This document shows positions 21,526-43,192 of a stretch of DNA of 64,000 nucleotides, piece after piece; the stretch's first letter is position 1, and each line of letters starts with the position of its first letter. Source of the stretch: Epinephelus fuscoguttatus (taxonomy: Eukaryota; Chordata; Actinopteri; Perciformes; Serranidae); assembly GCF_011397635.1 (NCBI RefSeq), contig NC_064775.1, positions 16,536,954 to 16,600,953 of the forward strand, read 5' to 3'. The notes beneath the pieces are model-generated. The model was not told where the DNA came from, made no database searches, and saw only the letters and a program-made list of their open reading frames with translations. Both the position numbers and the translations under genes were made by a program.

Positions 21526-21890
21526 TAGCTGCCCCCGTTAGTCGACCAGACAGGTCATTAGTCGGCAAGATTTCATCTGGATGTGAGTGGGTGGAAATCA
21601 CTTCACACGACAAAGAATCTTCTGTTCCCGCATTTGACGTAAGTTCGGCAGGTGAGTATTGAACATACCACCATTTAGGCAACTATGCTGGGTTGCAGTC
21701 TCTAGCTTGGGCACAGAACAGCAAGCAAGCACTGTCCATGCAATGAGCCGCAAGCACCATTCAACTTTTACAAACTGACTCCTGTGAAAGCTGTCTTCAT
21801 ACTTCATCACGTCAACTGACCAATCAACAAGCAATAAGGACCACATTTGTAAGGGAAGAGAGGAGGTACGTAAGTGGTAAGTCTTATTCA
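21526..21890. mobile_element. fragment of the same hAT family as 15976-16846
   Basis: The sequence tagctgcccccgttagtcga followed by ccagacaggtcattagtcgg parallels the left end of the 15976 element (tagggctgccccctaatag ... ccaccagaaaggtcatta). No right end was found. The right limit given is an estimate. Confidence 0.45.
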
Positions 21891-22019
21891 GCATTTGGTA
21901 AAACCAGAAGACCTTAAAAAGAGTCGGATGTTCAGCTTTTTTGGTATGAACATTTTCTGTTAATGGTTATAAGCCTGGTTTTTGGGAGCAAAAACATATT
22001 GTAGGCGTAGATTGCAGGG

Positions 22020-22260
22020 GGCACACTGGGGACATGTCCCACTCAGTATTTAGAACGTGTATTCGTCACCCCAATAAAAACTTGAGAACTTTTACTTCAA
22101 TGACAATAAAGACATTTCCATCATAAATTGGTGCATAAAAACTCACCAGGATGCAGGAAGTTAAATTTCCTTTCCTTTCAATCCCCCACCTGCGTCATAT
22201 GTGCCCCCCCAATGTTGAAATGAAACCTACGCCTTTGGGTTACGCCTACGCCTAGGGTTA
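22020..22260. repeat. dispersed repeat, related to a copy at about 61828-61925
   Basis: The core ataaagacatttccatcata followed by a partial match to tggtgcataaaaactcaccagg recurs at 61848 (attaaagacatttccatcat ... tggtgcatgaaaattaaccag). The two copies show that this is an interspersed family. The class is not known to me. Confidence 0.55.
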
Positions 22261-23631
22261 GTCAAATATGGCCTCTTCTGGCTCCAAAAATCCAAGATAG
22301 CAAAAGTCACAATGCCAAACCAATAACTGACGTCACGGTGACTCTGTCCATTATTTTTATACTCTATTTTTGTACACCATCCTTCTTCTCTTGGTTAAGA
22401 GCTCTGTTTTTCTCAAAGACAGTGACGCCTTGCCTTTTCAGTGTGTAATCAGTGATTCATTCTTGAAAAATGGATGATGTTGGTGTACAGGTGATAGCAG
22501 CACAACACTTCACACTATCAGCTTTTTGATTTACTCCACATCCGTAATTTCATTCCTCTACGCCCATCAAAAAGCACTCTAGTGTGCCAGGAATCAGTGT
22601 GTGTGTGAGCCTGCTCCACATGCAGGTCAGTGGGCCGTTTGGTTTGTCTGACGTATGTGAATTAGATTAGGTCCCTCTCACAGTCAAGACTTAATCATGG
22701 ACTAAAGCACAGTTCTGCCAGCTCCCATTAGACACCTGTAGAGCAAAAAGGCCTCAGACGGGAGGAGCAGCAGGGGACAAAGACCTCAAACACCTGTGAC
22801 GATGGCACTAGACCACACTGTGTTCACCTACTTCCCAGAGCGCACGCAAGCACACACAAAAGAGATCCATATCACCACTGACATACCTCCAAAACCCATC
22901 ACGGCATGCACATAAACCAAACACTCTCCTTCACAAATAAGCAAAACAGAGTCCAACTATCAATCCACAAACAAATCCAGAAACTGATCTTTATGCCGAA
23001 CATTGTTCCAAAACAATTCCTTCCCAGGAGGAAGGAAGCACCAGCCAATACAGCGTGTCTTAATTTCAGTGGAGCACAGAGTGGTTCTGTGGTTTCAGGA
23101 TTTTGACGGCGCACCTAACCAGAATTGACGTTGGGAAATATACTTAACGTTCCCGCGTGGTGCATGGAGGTGGATTGGGTTTCCCAGTGGTTGGAAAAGC
23201 ACAAAGTGGCTGAATGTATGGCTCTCACACACATACTGTACATGAACGCAGGAGGAGTCCACTAGAATTAAATTTGAGATTTAGATAAGTCGTATTTTCA
23301 TAGCTTATGCAAATAAACACACAAAATCCAACCTGTTGTTACGTGATTAAGGTCATTTCAATTACTCCATCGGTGATAAGACACAGCCCAATCTGGTCGG
23401 ATGGAGGTTTGTCCTTACAGGAGGCAAGTAGGTGAAACCTGACACACGTCACGATACACGTTGTCAACACCTATTTGGCCCGAACTGAAAAACACATAAT
23501 CTACATTTAAATAATGAACTAATGTTTCATTTAATGCCACTTTTTCTATCTGTGTAGTCATATGTATGGATTTCTGCCCATTCTTTGCAATGTATGTTAG
23601 GTTAATTGACAACCAACCTCCAAGGTTTGCC
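22261..23631. other. gene-free stretch
   Basis: No supported gene or mobile element in this interval on either strand. Confidence 0.4.
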
Positions 23632-23880
23632 TTAAAGGAACAGTTTGGATCTTCTGAGGTGGGGTTGTGTGAGGTAATTATCCATAGTCAGTTTATTATA
23701 GACAGTAGATGTCTGTCGGCATGGTCCAAGTTTGGAGGAGCAGCAGACGGACTGACACAGAAGCTGAGCAATGCACTGCTGTGGATGGACGCAGCAGCAA
23801 AACGTCTTTTAGCCACCTAAAAAAATGATTATCAGTTTAAGTGTACACTATATTGAGAGTATTTTCACCAGTTTACATTG
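23632..23880. mobile_element. TTAA-ended non-autonomous element (Kolobok-like)
   Basis: It starts TTAAAGGAACAGTTTGGATC and contains gaggtggggttgtgtgaggt, tagatgtctgtcggcatgg and acgtcttttagccacctaaa. These match the order of segments in a very common teleost non-autonomous element with a TTAA target. The right end is not recognisable, and the limit given is where similarity fades. Confidence 0.6.
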
Positions 23881-25537
23881 GTCTACTGCCGTCTGGCTTT
23901 GAAGAGAGATAAAATCTGATTAAACATCCAAAAGGGTGTATGACTCTTGGCTTTAAATGACTTGCTAAGCCTCAAAGCAAGAAACACTTGAACACTTAAA
24001 TCTCATTCAGTCTGAGTCAAAACCCACCATATGATTGTACATCATCAGCATGTGAGGGTGTTGTTTTCATTATATATCTCCCATACCCGGGGGTTTATGA
24101 GACAGCAATCAGAATGTGCCGACACAAAAACTGGAGCGCAGTTTCATGAGAGTGTTAATACCTTTTCACAAAAGGAATGTTTTCACATCCAGACATGGGA
24201 AATCTGTGGTTCCTGTTTCTGCTCGGTGTGTGGAGGCTGAGGCGACACTGAAAGGAGGCAGGTCTGGAACAGATCCATGCTTAATGGAAGTCTGGGCTTT
24301 TCTAGATCATTATCAGTGGCTGAATATATGTATAAAATAGACATCACCACCCATCAGGGCTTCCGTTATAGCCTGCAGACATGAGGAATCAGGGCTGTCA
24401 TAACAGAAATTTAACTTAATTCAACATAAAATACACATCAGTGCAAGACACCTTTTGCTGATGCAAGCTGGTGATGACTGCAAGGGCAACTGGCTGTGGC
24501 AGACAAGATGCCAACTACAAGCTGGGCTACTCCCATATCCACAAGCCATGGCCATGGGCAAGACATGAGCCAATATATGAATGCGCAAATATGACTTCAG
24601 TTAAAATTCTCTACACATCTACATGTTAAATCCCCATCCTTTCCTCACAGGTTAGTCTGCTCTCCTGTGCTGCAGTGAATAGCTGGGGGGCAGCGCCGGT
24701 TTCAGCACCATACAGGCGTGGACCAGAACAAAAGGCGCAGGCTGCTGCAGCGGACAGAGGCGCACCAGGACGCAGCAACACAGCCACAAATAAACAGCGA
24801 CTAAAACGCAGTTTCACACATTTCCACACGTGCACACACTCAATTTTTACTCTTAAATCACTTGAAAGCCACAGTGAGTTAGAAACTCCCTGTCGAGATT
24901 GCGCGCCATCATTTTACATCTCTAAATCCACGCATAACTGTACATCACACACATACACATACACACAGCTGAGGATTAGTGGACAGCAACATTAATGTAC
25001 TTTGACTTTTAATTTTAAAGAAACTTTTACAGCTGCCTGTGCTGCATTAAAATAACTGAAACTCTACATGCATGCTTGTTGGTATTTATTATAAGGCAAG
25101 TAAATGACAAACAAAGAGCTTGAGCTCTTACCTGGAGGTTTAGGCTGCTGAGCGGCACTAATACCCTTGTGTGTGTGTGTGAAGGCAGAGAGCTGTAGTG
25201 ACAATGAGAGCGGTATGGGGCCCTCTGATCCCTCCCATCGCAAATTAAGCTACCGTAAATGCAGCAGTGTAGGCGCAGCAGGATTATGTGGATGTGCATG
25301 ACAGGGCAATCCCTCCTATATGGCATATGTGCAACATTTTTATGAGTGTAAATGCAACAAAGACATGCAGATATACACTGATATGAAGCCAGACAGGTGC
25401 AAGGAAACGTAGAATCATGGTTAAAGAGGGTTTTGCATGTCTATAATGTGCTACTTTGCTGAAAGGGGATGCACTGTGTCCGCAGTAGAAATGAGTGCAG
25501 AGCTGAAAGCAGCGGGGTGTGGCTGTTGCTGAGGAAA
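23881..25537. other. gene-free stretch; isolated minus-strand splice donor near 25131
   Basis: No protein-coding exon was found. A perfect donor consensus on the minus strand (CTCCAG|GTAAGAG, plus strand ctcttacctggag at about 25126-25138) is preceded about 60 bases upstream by a CACTACAG acceptor-like site, but the piece between has no coding similarity. A CpG-richer patch lies at about 24690-24780. Confidence 0.3.
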
Positions 25538-25690
25538 CATGGAGAAGAGAGGGGGGGAAAGGAGAGAGGAGGAGAGGAGGAGAGGGAAGGGGATAATGTG
25601 GATGCGATGCCAAGGGGAGAGTGGGAAGGAGGGGCACGAGAGAAGATGGGAGGAAGAGGGGAAGAAAAAGGAGGGGTTGGAAAATGCATC
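25538..25690. repeat. polypurine tract (GA-rich)
   Basis: About 150 bases are almost entirely A and G on the plus strand (gagagaggaggagaggagga and similar), interrupted by a few pyrimidines. Such tracts can form triplex DNA and give spurious open frames on both strands. No gene was inferred here. Confidence 0.8.
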
Positions 25691-26039
25691 AGTGAGCAAT
25701 AGCTGCACTTCTGTCCTCCCCAGGTGAGGCGTGGTGGGGATGCCGTCTGCCTCCTCAACTGGCACTGATGTGGGTTTTTTGGGCATCAGGGAGTCAGACT
25801 GGCATGCTGTGCATATTCAGGCGCATACACCACATCCACAAAGAGTGATACATGGTACCCAGACATTGCTACAGCATGCTGTACCATATAATTTATAAAA
25901 CTGAGAAAGCTGCTTTAAATCTTCCAGACACATTCAACAGTCTGCTGTTGCCTGCTGAGTGTGCTGCATTGGAATCAAATGGACACTTGGTTATTTTTCA
26001 TTTGTCTGACCCATTTATCCATCCATCTGCTGCCACCTA

Positions 26040-26195
26040 TTGGTGGGTGTGAGGAAATGCACAGGGGATGGTGTCTCGCAAGTTTTTCTTCAGTTTAGGA
26101 GATATACTGGGAAGGGTCAGTTTTTTTTCCCCAGATGGGGACTTGAACCGACGACCCCTCTGGTTCCCAACCCAAGTCCCTATGGGCACTTCATT
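26040..26195 (-). mobile_element. tRNA-derived SINE fragment, minus strand
   Basis: On the minus strand the sequence contains gggttgggaaccagaggggt then CGTCGGTTCAAGTCCCCATC, a clear RNA polymerase III box B (GGTTCAAGTCC), followed by a body segment. The tRNA-like 5' half is shortened, so this is a SINE rather than a tRNA gene. Confidence 0.6.
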
Positions 26196-26341
26196 TACAT
26201 CAATTCATCTTTAACTCTCTCAATCACATGCCTCAAATTCACACCCTGACATACTCTCAAGATCTACCTGTAATCTGATGTAAAATATTAGTTTATTTGT
26301 AATATATGTCTCAGATGTATGGAAAAAGCATTATCTTGTGA

Positions 26342-26512
26342 GAATGGAAATCTGCCTCCCCTCCTTGCTTTACAAAATGGCTAAATGACATGGTTTCTTG
26401 TCTACATCTTGAGGAATTTCAGAACACTCTGTCCAACTCCCTCATCAAGTTTTATAAAATGTGGAGACCTTTTATTGAACATATCAAAAAGATGAGGACT
26501 CAAGCTGACTAA
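26342..26512 (+). pseudogene. C-terminal end of an L1-like LINE ORF2 (5'-truncated)
   Basis: One continuous plus-strand frame of 56 codons ends at TAA (26510-26512). It carries the pattern of L1-clade ORF2 C-termini: EWKSASPPCFTKWLNDMVSC, then a short spacer, then FYKMWRPFIEHIKK. An A-rich tail region follows to about 26580. The element is severely 5'-truncated, as is usual for LINE insertions. Confidence 0.6.
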
Positions 26513-27671
26513 CCATATTGGACTACTTCCTTGCATTGGACTGTACACTGTGCTTGGGTCATACAAATAAACTGTGTCAATATCTGAACTTGCAATGAAG
26601 CAAAATCCTCATTTGGGTAGCTGTGTTCAGTCTCTTACTCTCAGCTCTGAAATTTTCTGTAATTATTTTCCATATTACAGGATTCAGACACATAAATTTG
26701 AATATTCTGTTGATTCTGAAAAATACTGCACAGTTAAACATTGTGTGAACTTCATTTATTTCATCAGGTGGACAGCCATAGTTGGACAATTTCAGTGTTG
26801 ACATAAAGGCACATAGATCTGATTAATTAATCTTTTATGCAGCTACATACTCAACACAATATCAATAAACAACCCAATCATTTACAAAAATACTTTCTGG
26901 CTGGAATCTATTATTTTTAGTGCAATATATACAATATATTCTATACACACGACTACCGCTACAGTGAGTGGACAGAAGCAAACATAAAAATAAGTTGTTG
27001 TTTTTTGTACCAACAATGTGAAATACAACATGTTTGACTGAGGTCATTGAAGGTTTTGTTCATACAATGCTTAGCATTTTGTGCTCTGTCTATTTTCTGT
27101 CAGCCTTTAAAATCAACAAATTTAATTTTCCATCTGTAAGAGGTAGGTCATTCAAGGCACACGGCATTCATGATAGACTATTACCCTTGAAACCTTGTGC
27201 AATCATGTTAGCTAGGTAACCCTTAATTACTGTGCAGCACCGGTTTATAACAGCGAGGCAAACTAGTAAGCTAACAGTTACGTGCTATTGATACACACTG
27301 GCCAGTAAGCTGTATTATTATTTCAAGTGTACCAACATCCTTGTGAGCCACAGTGGATTGCTTTGTAATTTTTCGAGCATGAGATTCAGAAATACCATCC
27401 ACTTCAGAGACAAACATGATGTATGAATGAATAAAAAGGTAAGTTTATAGATGGCACTTTAGACTGCCCTACATTACCTTACTGTAGGCCCAGTTTAACA
27501 AGCAACTTTCAACAATAGGACGATATGCAGTAGGGGTCCCTGCTCTGTCTAAGAAACCCCAGAGACACCTGCTTTAACCCAATTTACACAAATGGTGAAC
27601 TAAGAAAAAACACCTGTGCAAAGCATCCCACTTTCCCCAGTGCGCCTCCACCGTGAAAACATCCAAAGTTC

Positions 27672-30600
27672 TCACTTCTGGCTGACGATGGTGCGGGCGA
27701 TGAGCTCTTTCATGATCTCGTTGGTGCCTCCGTAGATAGGCTGAATACGGGAGTCCACAAACGCCCTGGAAAAACAAAGCGAGACAAGTCCAGCAACTTG
27801 TAGAAGGACTGGAATACGAACAATGTGGCGTTCTTCCCTGATGTTATACCGACCCTCTGGTACACAGCTTATGTGGTACTTACTTGGCAATGGGGTATTC
27901 CCACATGTAGCCCCAGCCTCCGTGGAGCTGCAGGCACTGAGTGGCCACCTTAATCTGGAGGTCAGAAGCCCTGGAGAGAAGGTGAAGGACATTAGCAAAT
28001 GGCTGCAACATAGCCTGTTTTTTTTTAAAGATGAGAAGCTAACACATTCTCACCAGAACTTGGCCATGGAAGCTGTTGCGGCATCCAGGCGTTTCTCAGC
28101 GTGGAGCTGAAGGCAGTTATCTATGAAGGATCGGCCCACACAGATTTCAGTCTTCAACTCTGCCAGCTTGTGTTGAACAGTCTGTGAAGTAAAATTAGAT
28201 GCAATGATATTTATTCTCTTACGTTTTGACTGGTATGGAGCGTGTGATGAAGATATCTCAAAACAGTAGCTTTAGGTAAACCTTAACTTCTGAAACTCTT
28301 GTCTGCCAGTTACAGTTTAAACAGTACATAACACACAGGTAAAAACACAAGATTCAGAAAAAACCTTGTTATACAGACCTGGAGATGAGCGACCGTCTTG
28401 CCGAAAGCTTTCCTCTGCATCACGTAGTTCCTGGTTTCCTCAAACATGAACTCACAGCTCGCAATGGCCATGCCAGCAATCACCAGACGCTCCTTCGCCA
28501 TAAAATGATAACAAGATTTACTATCAGACAGGCTGAACCGAAGCAATTACAGAGTTCCTTGGGTGGAGGTATCTCTGTAGTAAAACAAGAAACAACTAGA
28601 AACAAGTTCATGCAGGCTCAGATTACCATTCGAAGTGTTTGACAACATTATGGAAAGGATCCCTACAGAGATAGACCTTTCTGTTGAAGAGAAAGATGCT
28701 TTTTGTTGAACCAGAAACCGCCATCACCAAACCCACCAGACTCCATTCAAGTAAAGTGATTTTAGCATGTATAGAACCAGCATTATTTCACATTTAACTG
28801 TATGAATTAAGGGTTTATTTCAACAAACCAAGAGTTGGTGATTGTTGAAACAGTGGAAAAATGAACCAAGATGCCTTTTGTGAGTTTCATTTTTTTTCTG
28901 TAGACTTGGGATGAGGTGTGTTTTATGATGATAAAATTACTGTTATTTCAAATGGGGTCTGGTGGGCTGTTTGTGGTGAAACAAAAAGGATCTTACTCTT
29001 TAACAAAAAGGTCTATCTCTGTAGGGATGCTTTCTATAATGTTGTCAGACACTTATAACAACAATCTGAACCTGTCAGTGGCAAAAATAAGCACTTTTAG
29101 TGGACATAAATTGATGGTGCACAATTGCCCTTCAACGTCACATTGCAGGGCGTTTTGTGGCTGTCAGATGCAGCCCTCTCGCTCAATGCTGGAGCAATTT
29201 CAAAAATAGTTGTTCCCATTAGTCACTTAGACTCAAATGCATGGTAAAATAGGGTTCAGGTAGAAAATACAATAAGTTACCCTTTCAGTGAATGAGTTCA
29301 ACATTTTCCTGTCACCTGAGGCAGTTCGTTCATCAGGTAGTAGAAACCCTTGTTGAGTCCTCCCAGGAGGGCGCTAGCTGGGAGTCGCACATCCTCAAAA
29401 AACAGTTCAGCTGTGTCCTTTACAAGAAGAAGAAAAAAATAGTGAGATGACAGAATCACAGTCTCCTGACATCAATCTTTCACATGACCTTTAGCAGGAT
29501 TGAAGAAGATTTAAGGAGCTCCAGTACCTGGGCCTTCAGACCGATCTTCTCCAGCTTGCGTCCTTTTTGGAAGCCCTTCATGCCATTCTCCACTAGAAAC
29601 AGACTGATGCCATGTGCCACTGACTTTGCCTCACGGTTAGTCACAGCCACAACCACCACTAAGTCAGCCATCCAACCATTTGTGATGAACACCTGGAAAG
29701 GTGAAAGCGAAAAAGAGTTCAGGGTGATGTTGAGATCGGATGGAATGACAGTTTTGCTTTTACAGCTCATTACCTTGCTGCCATTGAGGATCCAGTCGCT
29801 GCCATCCTTCTTGGCGTACGTCTTCACACCTTGAAGATCACTGAAAAGATAGAGATGCCGTGTCATCAAAGCTACACAACACCATCGCTGATGTTTCATC
29901 TATGCTCGAGTCCTGACCTGCCTGCTCCCGGCTCTGTCATGGCAATAGCGCCGATGCATTTCCCAGCAGTCATGTCAGGGATGAAGCGTTCAATCTGTTC
30001 CTTGCTACCATAGTTGGAGATGTAGGGCATGACGATGTCGGAGTGCAGGAGAAAACCCGGCCCTGAGCAGTTGGAGTACATTCTGAAGGGCAAAAAAAAA
30101 AAACAAACAAAAAAAACCCCCCTGATTAAAAATAGTTTGATCTTTGATATGATGGATGTTTTCAAATTTCCAAAGCAACTTACTGCTCCTCCCACACGAC
30201 AGCCGCAGAAAACACGTCTGCTCCGATGCCACCGTGCTCCTCTGGTATCAACACTCCTAGCATCCCTTGCTCACCAGCCTTCTCCCACACCTCCCTGCTC
30301 ACCTGACCTGCCTTCTCCCACCTGGAACATGGAAAAGGGGATTATAGTGAGGTGGGAAAGTAACTGATTAATTCTGCATTTCTTTGTGGTTGTTCTGAGC
30401 ATGTGCCATGCTTCCACCTACTCCTTGTGGTGTGGAGCCACTTCATCTTGAAAGAAGCGCCGGACACTTTGTCTGTAGATATCATGGTCCTCAGTAAAGA
30501 TCCGGCGGGTCCCGATGTCCATCAAGGTCTTGGCACTGGAGGTTTCTAGACGGGTTGATGGGGCAGGCTGCCCATGATCCTGGGCTTGACTGTGCTGTAG

Positions 30601-33116
30601 CCTGGGAGGAATTACAGAAATGTAACCAACCATACTCTTCTTGAATGCCAGCAAGTGGCTGATTTGGCAGCCCATGGCAAATAATTTCACTTTGGTAAAG
30701 CAGCAGGTGATCATGGATAGTTTGATATTGTAAGTTTAAGATGCTAACATTAGCATGACAGGCAGGCAGAAACTAATGTTTATTCTCATCATCATTTGTT
30801 CCTGTTTGATTATCTTCTCTATTAATTGTGAAATGTAAAAAAAAACAAACAGACAATAACAAAGGAAGCAAAGTATAATTTCCTAAAGCTCAATGCAATG
30901 TCGTCAAATGTCTTGTTTTGTCCAACTAGCACTCAAAAACCTAAAAACAGTCAGATAATTGTCATATAAGACAACAACTAAAAACAACTAAAACTAGTGC
31001 ATACCCATTGGTAGCTTTGTCACCTTCTACCTATGCCAATCCTCAATGCCTATGTGCAGTTTCACATAGATTGACCACGTCAGTGAGCAGAAAAACATGG
31101 GACAGACAGAATGACTGACTGACTGACTGACAGAATGACACACTGACAGTTTCTGTGATTATGTACAGCAAACCATACCATGACTTAGTCATACCAAAAA
31201 TTAGAAAAAAATAAATAAATAAATAAATAAATCAGCCAAAGGGGGAGCCACAGCGAGTTAAATTTCTCCAGTCACCTTGAGGCATCCTGTTCTACATATC
31301 TACCAAGTTTAGTAAAAATCAATATGGCGGTTAGGCCTAGATCAGAAATTAGTTCTCTAGCGCCCCCATTTTGTTTGATGAAGTGTTTTTCAAAAAATTC
31401 AAAATGGTGGAAAATCTATATAGCCGGAAGTTATGGGTTCTAGGCAAATTTGTTCCTCATGAGGAGAGGCATCTCTGTGCAAAGTTTCATGTCTCTACGA
31501 CATACGGGGCATGAGATATGCCCATTCAAAGTTTGCAATTTCAATCGGTTGCTAATATGGCCCCCCCATTCGCATCCTCCCATGACCCTCTACCACTGTG
31601 CCAGATTTCACATGGATTGACCAAGTCAGTGAGGAGAAAAACGTGGAACAGAGACACAATGACACACCCACAGACAGAGTTTTTGTCATTATATAGTAAA
31701 ATTATTAAATATTAAACAGTTCCAGATGTGTTTATAAGTCGATCCTTGAACTTATTTGAACCCTTTCAGCTCTACATGCGAGTTTAGCAATTTACACAAT
31801 TGTACCGGACATATTAACTTTGATTTTTTTACTTTCCTGTCAGAGCTTCATAACTATGGAACATTCTCCCATTGGAAATAAGAAACAGTGACATCCATCA
31901 CACATTCAAACAAAGGCGCAAGACCTGTTTTTCAGACAATCAGACATGAGAAAATCCTGTGACTTGTATCCTTTTATTGGTTTTAAAACATCTTGCCAAA
32001 GGACTGTAGTTGAAAATTAGCCAGCTGACCAACACAATGGGAATTTTCTTTCTTTCTTTCTCAAATGCTAATTCTGAATTTATTTTTTTCAGTGTACATA
32101 AATTAAGATCCAAAAATTCAAGATTCAGAAAAATATCAAATTAATTAATAGATGTTTGGAGTTGAGTTTTTGGATGTGAATTGGACCAGTCAAATGAGCC
32201 ATTAACCTAAATCTGATTTTTGAAAATGATGAAACTTGAATTTTTTTAGTCTGAATTCGTGAACATTGAATACAGTACATTAAAATTCAGCTTTTGACAT
32301 TGCAACAATATTTTAACAAACAATGAATACTTAATATTGAAATTTAAACACCTCTGAAATCATAGCATTGAAATATTTTACTGTGAAAACCATGAATCTG
32401 AATTTATTTATGAATTCGAGTATTTTTCCCCTCAATATTCACAAATTCAGATCCAAAAGTTCAAGTCTCAAACCTTAGAAAAAAAAAAAAATAAAATAAC
32501 AAAATAACAAATTAAAGTTACATTTTTGTATCTGTCTTTAGCCAATCAAATTACAGCCACCTGAGTCTATTTTTTAAGATTCATACAGTCGAATTTTTGG
32601 ATCTGAATTTACAAACACTGACAAAAACATAACTAAAACATCTCATATTTTAATTTCAAAGAGGTGAAGTCAAAAACAAAATAAAAATTATATTTTCAAA
32701 GTAAAAAAGTTTAATGCTACGAATTAATTGTTGGTTTTCTGATCATATCAATATTAAGTCAACAGTTGCTCAAAAAGTGACAACACAATGTCAGTGTGCC
32801 AAAGGTTGACTTCAACAGACAACTGCACGTCCGCTACAATCGATAAAATATACTATTTTCCAAGAGTGCAGCAGCCTTTCAATATTTAATATAACCGATG
32901 TTACTCGATAAAACTCAAACTGTGTCAGAATTCCGCATTTCTTGAAGTTAGCCATTAGCCCACTGACACATAACTCCACTTTCAAAGTAATATATCATTA
33001 TAAATGTATATATATCATATAATTTACCTTGCAGCAGCCACAGAGAGCACCTGTCCTCGCCCAGAGACATTTCTCAGTCCCAAAAGACAAGTTTTGCTGA
33101 CATATTTAAGAAACAT
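27672..33116 (-). CDS. acadl: long-chain acyl-CoA dehydrogenase, mitochondrial (ACADL), 11 coding exons
   Basis: FAD-dependent first step of long-chain fatty-acyl-CoA beta-oxidation in the mitochondrial matrix, passing electrons to ETF. Exons in transcript order: 33116-33028, 30601-30422, 30321-30184, 30082-29918, 29840-29774, 29692-29528, 29417-29316, 28492-28379, 28181-28054, 27970-27884, 27765-27672. All junctions are GT-AG with matching phase and sum to 1329 nt, 442 residues (human 430). Exon 1 encodes a basic, serine-containing transit peptide. Visible motifs are the first family signature [13 protein letters not shown] (about 183-195), catalytic Glu303 in PQERL (aligning with human precursor Glu291) as first codon of exon 8, the second signature starting [16 protein letters not shown] at 397, and the FAD-binding [10 protein letters not shown] near the C-terminus. 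Intron 1 is large (2.4 kb) and full of repeats. The 5' region is disturbed by a mobile element and carries a duplicate of exon 1. Confidence 0.97.
30985..31705. repeat. two direct copies of a dispersed repeat in acadl intron 1
   Basis: The segment tttcacatagattgaccacgt ... gaggagaaaaac-type sequence at about 31059-31140 recurs at about 31605-31690 (tttcacatggattgaccaag, then tcagtgaggagaaaaacgtg). Between them lie an (AAAT)n run at 31209-31235 and phrases such as aaagtttcatgtctctacgac that mark a fish interspersed repeat. No coding frame is present. Confidence 0.55.
32040..32720. repeat. AT-rich interspersed repeat, copy in acadl intron 1
   Basis: Contains aagatccaaaaattcaagat on the left and the reverse motif gaatttttggatctgaattt on the right. 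These motifs recur in copies at 40.2-41.0, 44.1-44.7, 58.1-58.7, 61.9-62.6 and 63.46-63.64 kb. The opposed motifs make the repeat partly self-complementary. Confidence 0.65.
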
Positions 33117-33535
33117 CTTGGATTAAAGCAGGAGGACGATGACACTGGTCACGTAGAGAGGTAGAAGCAAACAAGTCAAAGATCGTATGAGTAGGCAAGA
33201 TGGATCATAGACATATATACATAGACGCCGCATCGACTGCCTGAGCGCGTCCTCGCCGGCCGCCATCTTGGATGGGTCTCGCTTCGCCTCCACAGTGCAT
33301 TCACTTCTACTGAGGAAGGAGCTGTATGCACAAGTAAAATACAATAACTCGCTGAATTTTCGACTGATTTTCACGCGGTTTGGTTTGTTACAAACGGCAC
33401 ACATGTAGTTATGATACAGGATGCTTTCGTACATTAAAAATGCGGGATTTCATGCTTTAATACTTCCTACAGATAGCAACAGCATGTTATTTAGGTCACA
33501 ACACAGTTATTTTATTCACCTCAACCCCAGAGTGG

Positions 33536-33550
33536 GATATATATATATAT

Positions 33551-33585
<35 letters not shown>

Positions 33586-33600
33586 TACACACACATATAT
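33536..33600. repeat. (TA)n / (GATA)n microsatellite
   Basis: A (TA)n run followed by about eight GATA units and further TA repeats, immediately inside the left arm of the long-inverted-repeat element. A matching (TA)n run lies at about 35540-35582 inside the right arm. Confidence 0.95.
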
Positions 33601-33610
33601 ATACTGTTTC

Positions 33611-34643
33611 AGCTATCGCACTGAGACCTGCCATCTTCAGAAGTTTTCTGATGACTCTGCTATAGTTGGATGTATCACCAAGGGTGATGAGGATGAGTAC
33701 AGGGCTGTTGTGGATAACTTTGTCACATGGTGTGAGCAGAACCATCTGCAGCTCAACGTGGCAAAGACAAAGGAACTGGCGGTGGATCTGAGGAGGACCA
33801 AGACACCGGTGACCCCTGTTTCCATCCAGGGGGTCAGTGTGGACATTGTGGAGAGCTATAAGTACCTGGGGGTACACATTGACAATAAACTGGACTGGGT
33901 TAAGAACACTAATGCTCTCTACAGGAAGGGCCAGAGCCGTCTCTATTTTCTGAGGCGACTGAGGTCCTTCAACATCTGCCGGACTATGCTCAGGATTTTC
34001 TATGAGTCTGTGGTGGCCAGTGCTATCCTCTATGCTGCTGTGTGCTGGGGCAGCAGGCTGAGGGTGGCGGACGCCAACAGACTCAACAAACTGATCCGCA
34101 AGGCCAGTGACGTCGTGGGAATGGAGTGTGACTCTCTGATGGTGGTGTCAGAGAGGAGGATGCTGTCTAAGCTAAGAACTATCTTGGACAATGTCTCACA
34201 CCCACTCCACCATGTGCTGGTCAGGCACAGGAGTACTTTCAGTGGGAGACTCATACCACCAAGATGTACCACTGAGCGCCACAGGAAATCATTCCTGCCT
34301 GTGGCCATCAAACTGTACAACTCCTCCCTCTGAGTGGCCCTGTGACTATTTCACACACTGCAATAATTTAATCTAACTTGTGCAATAACCCCATTCACCC
34401 TGACTGTATATATTTTGTTTGTGTAAATAATCTTGTTCAGTCTACAATATATATATATGTATATATATATATTTATTTAAGTTTATGTTTGTTAATAATT
34501 CCTGTTTATTTAACTCTATATTTGTTAATACTAATGTTTAAATTTCTTATATTTTCACGTATCTTTCCTCTCTTGCAAGGAGCAATAGTAACATAAACAA
34601 TTTCCCCTCGGGGATCAATAAAGTATTTCTGTATTTCTGTATT
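33611..34643 (+). pseudogene. L2-like LINE, 5'-truncated reverse transcriptase C-terminal part
   Basis: A plus-strand frame runs from about 33611 to the TGA at 34331-34333. It reads LQKFSDDSAIVG (the reverse-transcriptase catalytic DD box, with Ser for Ala in the usual FADD), then LQLNVAKTKELAVD, YKYLGVHIDNKLDW and LYFLRRLRSFNICR, the standard order in L2/CR1-group LINEs. The 3' untranslated part ends with ggggatcaataaagtatttc and a short ttctgta repeat, typical of fish L2/Maui tails. The upstream catalytic domain and endonuclease are missing, so it cannot be active. It sits inside the long-inverted-repeat element. Confidence 0.85.
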
Positions 34644-34754
34644 TTAACACAATATACACAATACAAAACGTAGTATAGCATATTAATAAATTTATTAATA
34701 TATTTTAATAAAGAAAAAGCTCTATTGTTGATTGAGTTTATTTCTTACACACAC

Positions 34755-34866
34755 TCTCTTTTATACCCACAGCCATCAGACTTAATAAATCTTCGTTAAA
34801 TAGATGATCTTACAGACTTCTTTGAAATTTTCTTTTCGGGGATTATTAAAGTTATTCTTATTACAC
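34755..34866 (+). mobile_element. LINE 3'-tail fragment
   Basis: Contains acccacagccatcagactta and ttcggggattattaaagtta, the usual end of a LINE 3' untranslated region. No coding part remains. Confidence 0.45.
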
Positions 34867-35069
34867 TGACTGCTGTGATCCCTCAAAAGTAGTAAAAAAC
34901 ATTTTCAGTATTTACATAAACACTGAAATTAATTTTGGTATTGGTATTATAACTATGAAAATGGGACTGTGGTCAAGATAATTTGAAAAAAGATACAGAA
35001 GGATGAGCAGCAGGGGATATTTGCAGCACAGCTGGTGGAAAAGTGAGTATGTGCACAAAGGTGTGCTAG

Positions 35070-35455
35070 GCAAGGCAAGGCAAGGCAAGGCAAGTTTATT
35101 TGTATAGCACAATTCAACACAAGGTAGTTCAAAGTGCTTTACAGAGACATTAAAAGCAACAAGACACCATTTAAAACAATAAAAACAGTCGATTGAAAAG
35201 GGAAATAGAAATTGAGAATGATAATGATAATAATAAAATACAGTAACATAAAATAAAAACAGGCTCAATACATTGAACTGTCAGGATAAGAAAAGAAGTA
35301 GAATAATAAAAGGCATAAATCAGCAGTGTGTGGTTAAAAAGTACGGGCAGTAGAATACAGCAAGTAAGTATTTAATCTAAGAGTACGCTTCAGTAAACAA
35401 TAGTGTTTTTAGCCCTGATTTAAAGGAGCTGACAGTTTGAGCAAACCTCAGACCT
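35070..35455 (-). mobile_element. LINE 3' end with (GCCTT)n tail, minus strand
   Basis: On the plus strand it begins with five aaggc units then aagtttatttgtatagcaca and caaagtgctttacagagaca. This is the reverse complement of a very common fish LINE/SINE tail. The upstream part on the minus strand (gctcctttaaatcagggcta) belongs to the same untranslated region. No coding remains. Confidence 0.6.
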
Positions 35456-35538
35456 ACATATTATGTGATACATAATATGCTATACTGTGTTTTCTATTGT
35501 GTATATGGTGTTTATACAGTATGTTTATACAGTATATA

Positions 35539-35585
<47 letters not shown>

Positions 35586-35933
35586 ACTCTGGGGTTGAGG
35601 TGAATAAAATAACTGTGATGTGACCTAAATAACATGCTGTTGCTATCTGCAGAAAGTATTAAAGCATGAAATCCCGCATTTTTAATGTACGAAAGCATCC
35701 TGTATCATAACTACATGTGTGCCGTTTGTAACAAACCAAACCGTGTGAAAATCAGTTGAAAATTCAGTGAGTTATTCTATTTTACTTGTGCATACAGCTC
35801 CTTCCTCAATAGAAGTGAATGCACTGTGGAGGCAAAGCGAGACCCATCCAAGATGGCGGCCGGCGAGGACGTCGGCTCCAATAGGCAGCGGCAGTCAATG
35901 CGGCGTCTATGTATATATGTCTATGAGATGGAT

Positions 35934-35970
35934 CACTTTATAGTCCGTCTCTGGCTCCTCTTCCGGTCTA
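35934..35970 (-). promoter_or_regulatory. putative original acadl core promoter, displaced from exon 1
   Basis: On the minus strand the sequence reads ACCGGAAGAGGAGCC (ETS-type site ACCGGAAG, 35967-35960) and then CTATAAAG (TATA-like, about 35943-35936). It lies directly outside the right end of the inverted-repeat element. With the element removed, the TATA-like site would sit about 93-100 bp before the acadl ATG at 33116. The homologous stretch at about 37062-37095 is similar but has lost both motifs (caaaaagtgatc; ttcggagg). The function is inferred. Confidence 0.45.
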
Positions 35971-36867
35971 AGAAAGGAGGTTTTATCCCTTGAGAGGTGC
36001 TCCGGGTTGTTAAGTAAATACGTTTTTAGTTCCGCTTGTAGAAACTAACATTCGAGTGTAATTACGGATAAATACATTTATGATGTGATTTCGAAGCAGG
36101 GTTTCACACTTAAGAAGAAAGTTTTGCCCATCATAACAGCAGCAGAGTGAGACCTCTTGTTATTTTCTTGTCTTATCGCAGAGATTTCTTCTTCTACTAA
36201 ATAAATAAATACATGTATTCTTACTGACACCTACTGGTGGGATAAAAGGATTGCAGAAATACATGTGTTTAGTTTTCAGCAGGAGGTAAAAACTAACAAT
36301 TGGTACAAATAATCACATATATCTATATTAAATTTGCCTAGCTGATATCATGAAAAATTAATAGCATGTACTCGACAAAATAATGAGAGAAATCATATTA
36401 GAAATGAAAAGAAATATATATATTTTGGTGCAGAAATCATTGAATATTTTATCCAGCCAAAAATAAAAGGTTTTTATCTTTAAATGTATTCTGATATTTT
36501 GCCTATTTCAGAGATCCAATATGTAACATTATTGAAAATGCAATAATAATGTATAAAAAGAAACAGATTTTAAAAAAACAAAAAACAAAAAAACCCAACA
36601 ACAACATATATACTTATTTACTTATTTTATCTTTGTTTCACACTAACAGGTAACATTTAATTGCACAATCGATATTTTTACCTTATAAATTTATTTAACA
36701 TATTTTTACAGTGTGGTATTAGTGCTTTTATTTATCTGACTACTTCTGACCCCAAAGGTTGTGACCCACCCCTACAGACAAATGTCAATTACTGAAACAT
36801 ATGTTCATCTCAAAAGTAATACTACCAAACAAAGACAAATATTTAAACAATTGAGGCTATATTTCAC

Positions 36868-36956
36868 TTTGCAGCAGCCGCAGAGAGCGCCTGTCCTTGC
36901 CTGGAAACATTTCTCAGCCCAAAAAGACAAGTTTCAGCTACTTTTTTAACAGACAT
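36868..36956 (-). other. duplicate of acadl exon 1, open frame and GT donor kept
   Basis: On the minus strand the 89 bases have the same length, phase and start position as acadl exon 1 and match it at 71 of 89 bases. They encode 29 codons without a stop (MSVKKVAETCLFGLRNVS, then 11 more), ending AA|GTGAAA where the canonical exon ends AG|GTAAAT. Spliced to exon 2 (first base G) the frame would continue as Lys-Leu-Gln-His. Ten of the 14 codon differences change an amino acid, but the basic, Ala/Ser-rich character of a mitochondrial transit peptide remains. The donor is weaker (A at -1, A at +5). It may be an alternative first exon or a decaying duplicate. Similarity extends into flanks at about 36810-36870 and 36957-37095. 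Confidence 0.6.
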
Positions 36957-37499
36957 CCTTGACAAAAAAAAAAAAAGAAAAAAAAAGAAATAAAGCACAC
37001 AGCAGAAGATGCAAACAAACTAGATGAGTGAGAATGTGTGAATGACTATAAGGACAGATCAGATCACTTTTTGGGTAGTCACTGGCTCCTCCTCCGAATT
37101 ACAAAAGTAAAACAAAAGTAAAAGTCTGCCTTCTGTCTGCCTGTAGCCTAAAAATACACATTGAAGATGTCACAAGAAAAAACAAAACACCATGATGCAT
37201 TTAAAGAGTACTCGATGCAATATTGGCCCTTCAACTTATGCATCAGGGCCCATTGTGTCCCATTGTGCACACCCATCACACCCCTGAACATAACCTGTTC
37301 CAACTTCTCTACAGATGAGTGGGTTTTTATTTTGGAAGTAGAGACTGCCTTTCTTTCTAGGTCAAAAAAGACTGGTCTTTGCCACATCCCCGACTGTGCT
37401 TGATTTTGGGGATGTATCATATATGAATGCACCCCAGTGTTTGCATGCTCTAGACTCTGTATCATGGTGCAATGAGATTTATTACCAACTGTAATTGAT

Positions 37500-37670
37500 T
37501 GATAATTAACTCATCACTCATTTATATTGCTTGTTTTAGAGCTGTATTTTTGTTCTATGTTGTCTGTCTGTAACTTAAATTACTGCCTGTCTTGGCCAGG
37601 ACACTATTAAAAAGAGATATTTTTAATCTCAAGAGGTTAAATAAAGATTAAATAAATAAATAAATAAACT
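37500..37670 (+). mobile_element. LINE 3'-tail fragment with (AAAT)n end
   Basis: Contains cctgtcttggccaggacact, aaaagagatatttttaatct and gaggttaaataaagattaaa followed by ataaataaataaataa. This is the standard 3' end of a common fish LINE. No reverse-transcriptase frame is attached. Confidence 0.55.
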
Positions 37671-37689
37671 GTACAGCAGAACAGTTTCT

Positions 37690-38790
37690 TCCCCCATCAC
37701 TTTGAATCACTCAGAAAGTTAAACCCAGGTCAAGAGGCAAGAAATCTAGGAGTGACATTTGACTCTGATCTTAATTTTAAGCCACATATACGCTATGCCA
37801 CAAAAACAGCATTTTATCATTTAAAAAACATTTCCAAAGTGAGGCCGTTTCTCTCTCTGACCAACACGGAGAGATTAATACACGCTTTTATAACTAGCAG
37901 GCTAGACAACTGTAATGCTCTCCTTTCTGGTCTACCCAAGAATACAATTAATCAGCTGCAACTGATTGAAAACTCTGCAGCACAAGTTCTCACTCAGACC
38001 AGAAGGAGGGCACACATTACGCCTATTTTAAAATCCCTGCACTGGCTGTTAGTTTTCGTATTGATTTTAAAGTTCTTTTATTAGTTTTTAAGGCACTGCA
38101 TGGGCTTGCACCAGACTATATTTCAGAGATGTTTTTATTTTAGGAACCAGGAAGGCCCTTCAGATCCTCTGGCTCCTCTCTTTTAACTGTCCCACAGAGT
38201 AGAACAAAAACATTTGGTGATGCTGCTTTCAGTCACTATGCTCCAAAACTGTGGAACAATCTGCCGGAGGCTCTGAGAGGAGTCAGAAACATCTACACTT
38301 TTAAACATAGGCTAAAAATCCATCTCTTTAGTCTGGCTTTTGTGTGGTGTCCTACGTTAGTTCTATTGTTTTATAATTATTCTATTTATTACTTTTGATC
38401 TGTATTTGTCTTATTGCTATTTCCCTGATTGTTTTTCTTATTTTATTCTATATTTTATTTATATTTTTACTTTTCTTTTTATTCAGTGGTCTTATCTGTA
38501 TTTTTCTCTATTTATTATTGCTATTCTCCTGACTTTGATTTTATATTTTATCCTGCATATTATTTTAAATATTTAAAAAAAAAAATTTAGTAGCAGCAAA
38601 GTAGTTTTGATCTTGTTTTTATTTTCTATTATTGTTTTAAGTTATTACTGTATGACACAGTGTGCATTAGTTTCCCAGTCCTTTTTCTGATTTAACTTTT
38701 TTATTCTCTATATTTATCAATCAAAATGTAAAGCACTTTGAATGACATTGATTTGTTTTGAAAGGTGCTATATAAATAAATCTATCCATC
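37690..38790 (+). pseudogene. non-LTR retrotransposon fragment (reverse-transcriptase C-terminal region)
   Basis: A plus-strand frame at 37740-38084 reads LGVTFDSDLNFKPHI, then KTAFYHLKNISKVRPFLS, SRLDNCNALLSGLPK and NSAAQVLTQTRR. This is the conserved tail of a fish non-LTR reverse-transcriptase family. After a frameshift near 38050 the similarity goes on (LHGLAPDYISEM, later FSHYAPKLWNNLPEALRGV). The 3' end has atgtaaagcactttgaatga and gaaaggtgctatataaataaa, then ATCC/ATCT simple repeats. 5'-truncated, frameshifted and non-functional. Confidence 0.8.
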
Positions 38791-39024
38791 CATCCGTCCT
38801 TCTATCTATCTATCTATCCATCCATCCTGTTTGCAATTCACAAAAACAACCTGTATTTGTGTCTATTGACTTTGTACAGTGGGATATTAAGTACACACTT
38901 GTGTATGTACACACACTATGTACACACGCTATGTGTACACACTCAGCAGAACAACTGTTTGCTCTGCACCAAAGCATCCCTACAGCTGTATGTGGTCAAT
39001 AAAAGATCAAGAACCAACCCAGAT

Positions 39025-39512
39025 GGGATGTACGTTGGAAAAGTTTATTCTGAAATGAACAGAGTGATAATAAATAAAACTTTTCTGGGAAGACTTTTGG
39101 CGGTCTATCCACAACCATTTTCCAGCACCTTTGGCATTGCTGGGCCAGTGATGGCATGACTGAATGAGGTGGCGGTGGGAAGGTAGGGATCTACCCTCAC
39201 TTGATGAGCGGTCATCCCTTCTCCCCCGTTCCTCACCCCATGTGGCGAGTGGAGACACGCCCCGGTTGGAGTAGAGGCCAAGTGATGGGAGGTCTTCAGC
39301 GGAGAGGTGGTGGTGATGTCCCGAGAGAGGAGGGTTGGTGACGAAATGGAAAGAAAAACAAAATAAACAACAAGATGGGTTTGCTTCAACATCCCTTGTA
39401 CATAGTCCTTGTCTTTCCTTGGTTGGTCTTTGATACAGTGAAGATGTCCTGAACACTGATGGGCTGTCTGTAGGGGAGCTACAGTTTCCTCAGCACTCCA
39501 ACTGCTGGCCTC
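39025..39512 (-). other. myl1: 3' untranslated region of myl1 with AATAAA signal
   Basis: Downstream of the myl1 stop codon the minus strand has no further myosin coding sequence. The first AATAAA is at 39049-39044 (plus strand tttatt), so the mRNA probably ends near 39025. Whether an intron lies within this untranslated part, as in some vertebrate MYL1 genes, cannot be decided from the sequence. Confidence 0.6.
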
Positions 39513-39767
39513 TTACACAGACATGATGTGCTTGACGAAAGCTGGAGAAAGACAAAGCCATATGAGTAAATCTTAGGCATTACATATTTATTAAAAAAGA
39601 AAAAGAAAAGGCATGCCAGGAAGTATCAGCTTACCCTCATAGTGCACACTGCCGTTCTCGTCCTCCTGGCCGGCCATAAGAGCATCAATCTCTGTCTCAT
39701 TCATCTTCTCTCCTGGAGATGTTACAAGGATCCATGTCAGACTCTCTGTTTCACACACACGCTCACA

Positions 39768-39810
<43 letters not shown>

Positions 39811-42800
39811 TGCGTGCTAAGCAGACTATATTTGTGCACTTCTATATTTGGGGAACTCACCCAGGGTGGACAGCACGATGCGCAGCTCAGCGCCCATGAC
39901 TGTGCCGTTGCCCTCCTTGTCGAAGACGCGCAGACCCTCAACGTAGTCGTCATAGGTACCCTTGGGGAGGGCGTCGACCTGCTTCAGCATGGGAAGGAAA
40001 GCGTCGAAGTTGAGCCTCTTGTTGGCCATGTCTGTTGGAAATGTCACACGGAGGGCACCATAAACAACCACAGACCTCTCCTCTGTGCTCACTAACTTTA
40101 CGAACGTTATCTTGTGCTACTGCTACGCTATGTTTTAGCATCTGGCTTTATCTCATAATTCTTTGATGTCTTTAATTTTTGTCTATGAATGCATATATGG
40201 AGGCAAACTAGAGACAAAAGTATTTTTATTTTTGACAATCACTGAATGGTAAATAGTGAAATTCAAACGGCACTGAATTAATAGAATTTTAGTATTTTTT
40301 TGAGGGACTTTGTATCATGAAATTTCATGATTTTCACTTTTGAAAGCTTAATTTGAATTTTTTAAATTTTATTCTTACAAATTCAGATAAAAAAATAAAC
40401 CATCAGAATTTTAAAAATTACATTTAGGTTGCTAAAATGCAATTGGTCATATTTAGATATATAAATCCAGGATATAGCATTAGTCAAACTTGATCGGTCA
40501 AATTAAGATCCAAAAATTCAAGTTAAATAATCTTTTTTTTTTTTTTTGTAAATTCTAAAACTTGAATTTGGGGATCTGAATTTGTGAGAAAAACATAATT
40601 GAGAGAAATTATTGAATTGAATTTTGATTTTCAATGTTCACAAAATTCAGCTCCAAGAATTAATGTTTCAAAATTAAAAAAAAAAAAAAAATGGAGTCAC
40701 AGACTCAAATTAGATTGGTCAAATAAAGACTCAAAAATTCAACTGGAATTTTTTTTTTTTTTTCAAATTCTGAAACTTGATTTTTTTTTATATAAATTTA
40801 TAAACACTGAGAAAACTATAATTGAGAAAAATGAAAATTGCAAATCAAGAAATTTCAATTTTCAATTTCAAAGAGGTGAATTCCAAACAAATAAATTCAG
40901 ATACATTCTTTTTTTTCCCACAGTAAAGCATTTCAAGCTATTCATTCAGTGGTGTTTAAATTTTGTTGTTAGAATGCAAATAATTCTGTCACCTATTTGC
41001 TTCCATATATCTGCATTTTGCAAGCATGCAATGGGGTCTCACCTTCTGCGGTGGGGTTGCCCAGGATCTTGTTAACATCCTTGTTGGTGGGGTTCTGGCC
41101 CAGAGCGCGCATGATATCAGCCACCTGGTTGAAGGCCACCTGGCTGTCACCGACTCTGTCAAAGAGGCCAAAAGCCTCCTTGAAATCTGGCCAGGAAGAG
41201 TAAGCGAGAACTTTGAGTTACAAAGACACAAGTCAGTCAAAGAACCAAAAATACATGATGCCCTCTGCTATAGTGCTCACAACAGTTAAGTGGCTACACA
41301 CACTGGAAAGCTATGTCTTGATGGCATCAGAAGAAAGAACTAAATGGCAAATGGTAAAAAATATGTCAAGGCTATTGGACAATTTATATTGCCCCCAGAA
41401 AATTACGTCGGATTTGTCCGATACGTCAGTAATGTTCTCTTTTTGTGCAAATGCCTTTGGGTTTTCTATCCTTCAGGGTTTTAGTCAGCTATGGCAGCCA
41501 TGTGGTGCCACACTGTTTCCGAGGATCAAAGACAGTAGAAGCCGCATACTTCAGTCATTGTTCCCCGATAATTGGAAGGGACAGCTGTATCCAAGCAGAG
41601 AGGAGGAAGGTACTGAACAAAGGTTAGCTATTCCTATGAATCCTACCAGGAAGCCAACTCAAAGTGACCTTTTTGACAGATTAATGGTCTGAACAGCAGC
41701 AGAAGGAACAGCTGTACCTCCCACCCCACCTCCACCCCCGCCCCTTTGACCCCCTCTCCATTCCTGCCTCTGCTTGCATTTGAGAGGCATTTAGGTCGAC
41801 ATCGGGAGCAAACTGATACACCCCGAGAGAGGAACCCTGGCCATATAGAGGCATGGCAGCACGGCCCTGCTCAAGTTAAACATAAGAATGCTGACTGTGT
41901 TGTAACCAACACCTCGTCATGCATGGCTTGCATGTGTTTCACTGTAGTATAAATGTACCAGGATGTGCAGGAGCAGCACTTTTTTTTTGGGTGCAAAGCA
42001 AATTGAAAGTCCATACAAACCAATTAGCTTGACAGGAAGTGCTTTTGCCTCCAACTCTAAGATACACAACTATCCATACCGAAGCCATTATGTAGGCCTA
42101 TTACCCCACAAATACCTTTCACCAAACACAGGGTAATGTTTATAGAGGGCACATCTTTCAGCATTGAACAAAAGGGTTGGGGATGGTGCTCGGGGATCAG
42201 AGTCTGGATTCCGCATGTAATAGGACACCGCTGAGGCTGCATCTTAAACCCTGACCTCGGGATTAACGCCTCTGCTGCGTGCGAGCCACAAGACAAGGCT
42301 AGGTCGGCTTAGAATAGACATATCTCGAATTCTCCTCGACAACTGGACAAATCCGTGAAATGGCACGTCCTTTGGTGAGTTTGGGAGTTAATTTGGACTA
42401 GAGGTTTAACTGAGCAAACAACTACTCCGAGTTTGTTAAGTGTGACAATTAAAATTCCTCGCTAGGAAAGGTTTGGGGCATAATGTCACCACGAATTATT
42501 GTGAGACGTTTAGATTCTCACAGCCTGTTTCTCACACGTCAAGCTTTCTGTAAGGGACAAGGACAAATCTTGGTGTTTCTTCACTTACCCTCAATCTGGT
42601 CCGCTGAGAACTCGGTCTGTCATGTGGAAACACACAAAAATGCACATGTATACCAAAGACAATGCACATTTACAAATACACAAACACAGAGAACGCAGAG
42701 AAATGAATGAGTGAAGAAGATGCACAGACAAAGTCCAGTTCATGTAAGACTTCCTAACAATGCTCAAGCAGAGAATGTATTGCTGTAAACTGTGGGTGTA

Positions 42801-43045
42801 TTTTAAAGTGGTGGTCCCAAGAACTTTTATCACATTTTTTAAAGACAAGCTTTTTAGAGCAAAAGTCTTGATTTCTCCTTCCTATCACGATTTCATTGAT
42901 GCCAATTAAGTCCCAACTTTGAGCTTATTCTGCAGAGATGGTGTCCAAACCCATGCCACAAAGAATTGTCCCTGGCAGAAAAAAAAGTAACTCCATCGGC
43001 ACCGCCCCACCCAAAGGGTCCAAAACACAATTATGTACACACCAT
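39513..43045 (-). CDS. myl1: fast skeletal myosin essential (alkali) light chain, LC3 type, 6 coding exons
   Basis: Essential light chain that wraps the lever arm of fast-muscle myosin in the sarcomere. Exons in transcript order: 43045-43043 (ATG only), 42616-42589, 41186-41043, 40031-39861, 39712-39635, 39541-39513. These give 453 nt and 150 residues; the 28-, 144- and 78-nt exons are typical of this gene family. The protein starts [20 protein letters not shown], the fish LC3 (mylz3) N-terminus without the Ala-Pro-rich LC1 extension. EF-hand-like folds lie at about 11-40, 86-116 and 121-150 (for example [20 protein letters not shown]), and the end is [10 protein letters not shown]. No LC1-type first exon was found upstream. 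The position between acadl and lancl1 matches vertebrate MYL1; fish literature also uses the name mylz3 for LC3-type genes. Confidence 0.96.
39770..39809. repeat. (CA)n microsatellite in myl1 intron
   Basis: About twenty CA units lie between the fourth and fifth coding exons of myl1, 51 bases upstream of one exon edge. The length is likely to vary between individuals. Confidence 0.97.
40045..41012. repeat. AT-rich interspersed repeat in a myl1 intron, with extended homology to 44.0-44.74 kb
   Basis: The repeat has opposed ends, tatatggaggcaaactagag at about 40195 and tatttgcttccatatatctg at about 40994, i.e. an inverted GGAAGCAAATA-type end, and inner ccaaaaattcaag motifs on both strands. 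Similarity to the region upstream of myl1 starts before the element: gtgctcactaactttacgaa at 40086 matches gtgctcactaccttggtgaa at 44031. The shared block is therefore longer than the repeat itself. Confidence 0.65.
41187..42588 (-). other. myl1 intron 2, no further feature seen
   Basis: The intron lies between the 28-nt exon (42589) and the 144-nt exon (41186). An open frame on the plus strand at 41213-41692 has no domain or conserved motif and is taken as chance. No mobile element was recognised. Confidence 0.5.
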
Positions 43046-43138
43046 TTTGGAGAGAAGGAGCTGGAGGAGCGGAAAGAAAGGAGAAGAGAAGCTGAAGTCC
43101 CAAGACAGAGTGGTCCTGAGCCATGGTCAAAGCCGCCT

Positions 43139-43192
43139 CTTATTTAACCCTGGCACGTGACGTCACGTATGCTAATGGGGCGGATCAGATGA
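43139..43192 (-). promoter_or_regulatory. myl1: myl1 promoter: TATA box, E-boxes, CRE-like palindrome
   Basis: On the minus strand TTAAATAAG (43147-43139) is a TATA-like box about 95 bp before the ATG, so transcription should start near 43110. Upstream are overlapping CACGTG (43154-43159) and TGACGTCA (43158-43165), an ATTAGC segment, a GC-rich CCCCATT/CCGCCCC-type stretch (plus strand ggggcgg) and a CATCTG E-box (plus strand cagatg, 43186-43191). E-box plus TATA architecture fits a muscle gene driven by MyoD-type factors. Factor binding is inferred from motifs only. Confidence 0.65.

Follow-up and report, generated by a model that had tools for sequence, protein, structure and literature searches.

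A long-armed DNA transposon inserted between acadl exon 1 and its putative core promoter in Epinephelus fuscoguttatus

Introduction

Promoter turnover is known to arise when transposons land beside transcription start sites. Of the published cases that we found, the closest to the one described here is the insertion of Izanagi and Rex1 at the medaka dmrt1bY promoter. In this fish, a non-autonomous DNA transposon with an 8-bp target-site duplication (TSD) and CA...TG ends is interrupted by a LINE of roughly 1 kb (Rex1, 1,024 bp). A gap of 69 bp separates it from the start site downstream, which belongs to a duplicated gene, and the region exceeds 2 kb overall (PMC2820524). The acadl locus of Epinephelus fuscoguttatus resembles it broadly in these respects. 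The two differ in that Izanagi has terminal repeats of 27 bp and other sequence, with a THAP domain remnant deduced in that report; its insertion-free counterpart is a paralogous gene, whereas here it is an exon copy; and in medaka ChIP demonstrated binding and transgenic lines demonstrated expression (PMC2820524).

Three further systems share single traits with the acadl element. The P-like element Pdre2 of zebrafish also has an 8-bp TSD and ends that start CATA (CATACC... in Pdre2) but its repeats, terminal ones of 13 bp and subterminal ones of 12 bp, differ in sequence, and the description extracted from PMC10983969 mentions no long arms. The Mutator-like elements Muta1 and Tm1 likewise have long terminal inverted repeats, TSDs of 8-10 bp, and non-autonomous derivatives (PMC5225508, PMC3169594); the likeness is one of description; no transposase was found in the acadl element, and Muta1 has subterminal tandem repeats. 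ProtoRAG, of the RAG superfamily, is a DNA transposon with YY1 motifs in its terminal repeats; these sites matter for its transcription, the repeats drive transcription in both directions in reporter assays, and overexpressed lancelet YY1 lowered ProtoRAG transcription (PMC7481187). The acadl element is likened to it by the presence of a candidate YY1 motif. In the extract of PMC2518114, the TISU motif lies past the start site, as far as +30, and works in one orientation as a functional YY1 element; TISU motifs in 5'UTRs other than the main start codon are out of frame or are followed by a stop.

Results

The window, a 64-kb stretch of genomic DNA, has the gene order and repeat types of what looks like teleost DNA. 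It contains a gene on the minus strand that the initial annotation called acadl, and exon matches support this name. Human LCAD (long-chain acyl-CoA dehydrogenase) is the best PDB match in all three minus-strand frames of 18201-33202 (E 4e-53, 1.6e-46, and 8.9e-39), the matches jointly span chain residues 4-399 of 400, and the exons are closer to human LCAD than to other acyl-CoA dehydrogenases. PDB matches start only in exon 2; exon 1 is a prediction from its open frame, its donor, and a phase that agrees with the acceptor at 30601. Its predicted ATG is at 33116-33114. Upstream on the same strand are exon matches to a myosin light chain (myl1, about 39.8-41.2 kb, minus) and LANCL1 (about 48.9-50.7 kb, minus). 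Human ACADL, MYL1, and LANCL1 are also adjacent, in what we take to be the usual vertebrate neighbourhood. An Rfam scan of the 64-kb window gave no family at gathering score. The features discussed below are listed in Table 1.

Table 1. Coordinates of acadl, the inserted element, and flanking features within the 64-kb window
Feature	Position	Strand	Basis or remarks
acadl exon 2 to last coding exon	27678..30601	-	human LCAD matches
acadl exon 1 (predicted), coding part	33028..33116	-	donor AAG/GTAAAT; phase agrees with exon 2 at 30601
47-codon uORF	33123..33266	-	opens at the ATG of the left-arm motif, crosses the TSD, and runs into the acadl leader; in-frame stop ends 6 nt short of the acadl start codon
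TSD copy 1, AGATGGAT	33198..33205		8/8 identical
Non-autonomous DNA transposon, 2720 bp, ends CATAGACATATATAC...GTATATATGTCTATG	33206..35925		BLAST arms and TSD
Left (exon-proximal) arm, 372 bp, ends in microsatellite	33206..33577		inverted match
Candidate YY1/TISU motif CAAGATGGCGGC, left arm, aimed at acadl	33259..33270	-	motif scan
LINE 3' fragment nested in left arm	33608..34645	+	RT C-terminal part; edges approximate, inferred from resumption of the arm match
Inner piece of left arm, resumed past the LINE	34646..34685		40 bp, 90% complementary to 35473-35512
Inner piece of right arm	35473..35512		pairs with 34646-34685
Right (promoter-proximal) arm, 384 bp	35542..35925		inverted match
Candidate YY1/TISU motif CAAGATGGCGGC, right arm, aimed away from element	35849..35860	+	inverted copy of left-arm sequence
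TSD copy 2, AGATGGAT	35926..35933		8/8 identical
Candidate TATA box CTATAAAG	35936..35943	-	motif scan
Candidate ETS site ACCGGAAG	35960..35967	-	motif scan
Upstream copy of exon 1	36868..36956	-	open, 89 nt, same phase, weak donor AAA/GTGAAA
Copy of far-side promoter block, lacking the element and a TATAAA or GGAA core	37062..37107	-	alignment

The initial annotation had placed a 2720-bp element with a perfect 8-bp duplication close upstream of the acadl ATG. Both the element and its duplication were confirmed, with 89 bp between the ATG and the element. The TSD length comes from a single copy of the element, and by eye alternative even registers of 6 bp (perfect) and 10 bp (one mismatch) are possible. 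As in other Class II elements the ends are terminal inverted repeats, the tips being CATAGACATATATAC and its complement. Aligned with each other, the arms are 92.7% identical over 385 BLAST columns, counting one extra base per tip, and a core of 330 bp aligns without gaps at 95%. Of the 289 core positions that lie outside the microsatellite, 9 differ, a figure that gives no age for the insertion, as the arms may already have differed when it occurred. The TSD and inverted arms bear out the reading as a transposon insertion, and we are confident that a long-armed, non-autonomous DNA transposon, with its nested LINE fragment already in place or gained afterwards, entered by cut-and-paste between the putative acadl core promoter and the 5'UTR.

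Searched against the 64-kb window (BLAST with low-complexity filtering, E up to 1e-3), the element matched only itself and its own arms. Exact terminal inverted repeat patterns of 20 bp and 26 bp had no match in viral contigs. The 16 stretches that a 16-bp pattern found there match the element over at most 26 bp, and a single 20-bp match in a bacterial bin (genome contigs) does not extend; both were taken as chance. A literature search with the terminal repeat sequence returned nothing related by title.

Within the left arm, the match to the right arm halts at 33577 and resumes at 34646 with a reverse transcriptase (RT) frame between, so that the arm appears to be interrupted by an inserted LINE fragment of about 1.04 kb; without it the element would measure about 1.68 kb. 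The C-terminal part of the RT sits in an open frame (33575-34333) with an ALKBH8_N match and a weak match to the tail of RVT_1 (E 0.004, which falls short of the curated cut-off). By eye, a LINE-like 3' end is recognizable near 34640. This fragment may have been gained either before or after the element landed at acadl. A DNA-repair gene was considered for the ALKBH8_N match and dropped, as the match falls in the LINE frame that also has the RVT_1 tail. Two other repeats lie in the interior of the element. One (35069-35140, GGCAAGGCAAGGCAAG...TTTATTTGTATAGCACA) resembles a further dispersed repeat nested there, and the other is a second LINE-like 3' end (34836-34864, TCGGGGATTATTAAAGTTATTCTTATTAC), which by eye suggests that nested insertion took place more than once.

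Pfam gave no transposase match in the six frames of 33201-43192 at E up to 0.01, and in particular no THAP domain and no P or MULE transposase, which a non-autonomous copy need not have. The 8-bp TSD agrees in length with those of hAT elements, though no hAT transposase matched in that interval either, and by TSD length we take Zisupton/KDZ to be a candidate superfamily. Long terminal repeats with a TSD of 8-10 bp, as described for MULEs in extracts of PMC5225508 or PMC3169594, are both present. For the P superfamily the TSD length fits, and the end CATAG deviates at position 3 from YARNG, the terminal motif that PMC2820524 cites; Pdre2 itself (CATAC) also fails this motif in the extract of PMC10983969. 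Membership among the P elements was dropped as a statement of fact, given long arms and an end motif unlike those of the fish P elements described in PMC10983969 and PMC2820524, and the missing THAP match.

Just outside the far end of the element, in the acadl sense, the ETS and TATA motifs reported in the initial annotation were found again. Each is at chance level in the 64-kb window, with three CTATAAAG against 2.28 expected and two ACCGGAAG against 0.69 expected. As an ordered pair (CCGGAAG then TATAAA, 5-35 bp apart) they occur once against a mean of 0.03, with 3 of 100 shuffles holding one; this pattern was picked after the site had been seen. A start 30 nt past the TATA box would now fall at 35912, inside the right arm, and without the element about 68 nt before the ATG. 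This block is plausibly the ancestral acadl promoter, as judged from its motifs and position.

The duplicate exon upstream is real, no shuffle in 1000 reaching the alignment score of exon 1 against it. Its upstream region was said to match the sequence on both sides of the insertion, which stands for the far side, whose score 1 of 1000 shuffles reaches, and fails for the near 5'UTR flank of 87 bp on its own, where 257 of 1000 do so. With the flanks joined, none of 1000 shuffles is as good, although the alignment runs only 3 bp past the junction, all within the target duplication. From ATG to block is 105 bp in the copy versus 86 bp at acadl with the element discounted. The proposal that the duplicate is an in-genome empty site therefore stands structurally, as the same layout of block and exon without the element, with the near flank matching at chance level. 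On this alignment evidence the copy shows that an element-free arrangement existed; divergence is too high to show the exact target bases. The duplication (36791-37107) is small, old, and in tandem, and takes in the promoter block, exon 1, and the start of intron 1, which are 74-78% alike in three matching pieces.

In the copied block, CCAAAAAG stands in place of CTATAAAG and TCGGAGG in place of CCGGAAG, while neighbouring bases are kept. Conservation in the duplicate was accordingly dropped as support for the TATA/ETS block, both motifs being lost. Of the suggestion that the insertion moved the promoter, there remains that it splits a plausible TATA/ETS block from exon 1, for whose motifs the copy gives no conservation support.

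Each arm carries an outward candidate YY1/TISU motif, CAAGATGGCGGC, which contains SAASATGGCGGC, the TISU/YY1 core consensus. The motif occurs twice in the 64-kb window, once per arm, where shuffled sequence has 0.03 on average; none of 100 shuffles holds two, the maximum being one per shuffle. Being inverted copies of one arm sequence, the two occurrences count as one event, and conservation of the motif is judged from the two arms of a single element copy. YY1 acts as a repressor as well as an activator. The near motif is in the acadl sense, with its ATG 150 nt from that of acadl and in the same frame. For the resulting uORF, falling in frame has a one-in-three chance and is no evidence by itself. 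Among the TISU motifs in 5'UTRs described in the extract of PMC2518114, the arm motif is of the stop-terminated kind. These motifs are new, being absent from the initial annotation, and give a start within the arm a candidate basis in sequence.

Discussion

The insertion at acadl is real and clean, and an event of a common kind. For its consequences, the best explanation, which we hold tentatively, is that the insertion severs the TATA/ETS block from the gene and that transcription of exon 1 now starts in the exon-proximal arm through the YY1/TISU motif. The insertion would have cut the block off from exon 1, and transcription would begin in the left arm at a site placed by the outward motif, giving a leader of about 160-180 nt whose uORF would end just short of the acadl ATG. 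The gene may have tolerated the insertion with the help of the alternative first exon, which lies 3.8 kb upstream. A start inside the near arm appears the likeliest route, as suggested by one motif and by analogy with the TISU and ProtoRAG systems as extracted from PMC2518114 and PMC7481187.

The upstream copy of exon 1, open and phase-compatible, could also be used as an alternative first exon. Were it the main start, spliced to exon 2, the element would be intronic and nearly neutral; we regard this as doubtful. The copy is open over its 29 codons (89 nt) and keeps its ATG, GT, and phase, but under neutral simulation (18 substitutions in 91 bases, no indels) ATG, GT, and frame survive with a probability of 0.184, so their survival is no strong signal. 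Rough estimates of dN 0.21 and dS 0.26 over the 29 codons give no clear constraint. Its donor has 6 of 9 consensus bases compared to 8 of 9 for exon 1, and its block is without the TATA and the ETS core.

Continued use of the old TATA/ETS promoter, with a start near 35912 in the right arm and the element serving as a 5' intron or long leader, is unlikely. The two motifs are intact and unusual as a pair, and two acceptors are possible, an AG at 33145 (69% pyrimidines before it) and one at 33117 adjoining the ATG (81%). Splicing would nevertheless have to use modest donors: scanning from 35970 to 33300, three reach at least 7 of 9 consensus bases, all at 7/9 (34398, 33865, and 33519), and the first past the TATA box is that at 34398. 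Unspliced, the leader would be 2796 nt long with 43 upstream ATGs, and its arms could form a hairpin of 355 bp (-624 kcal/mol for the plus-strand sequence of the arms). The number of ATGs was dropped as a special feature because composition predicts 47.3.

It is quite unlikely that the TATA/ETS block was never a promoter, that TATA-less starts lie in the 89 bp beside the ATG, and that the insertion changed little. Taken singly, the motifs stay at chance level across the window, and both are lost in the paralogous block, as this reading would have it; against it, the ordered and spaced pair, though chosen post hoc, is rare and located where a promoter is expected, and the copy conserves the flanking block. 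That the insertion is polymorphic, or a peculiarity of assembly or haplotype with an empty site on most chromosomes, is very improbable: the evidence is from one assembly, but the 64-kb window contains no N, and a clean TSD with complete arms resembles real sequence.

The start in the near arm stays the preferred reading. A fuller version of it, in which the arm replaced the promoter of acadl, a gene of mitochondrial fat oxidation, the YY1/TISU site sets the start, the in-frame uORF provides new translational control, and the upstream copy keeps the older regulation, strikes us as improbable when taken as a whole.

A literature search gave no such insertion at acadl by title among the matches listed, which does not prove its absence from print. 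The locus amounts to one insertion near one gene. It would also make a tidy test case, combining a paralogous element-free site with two candidate promoters, one old and one borne by the transposon. Should the arm motif prove functional and be kept in the family, every copy would bring a pair of outward promoters that could reset starts at other genes. Elsewhere in the window, a Tc1-like transposase frame (7600-8634, minus) is open without a stop over 345 amino acids and matches HTH_Tnp_Tc3_2 and DDE_3.
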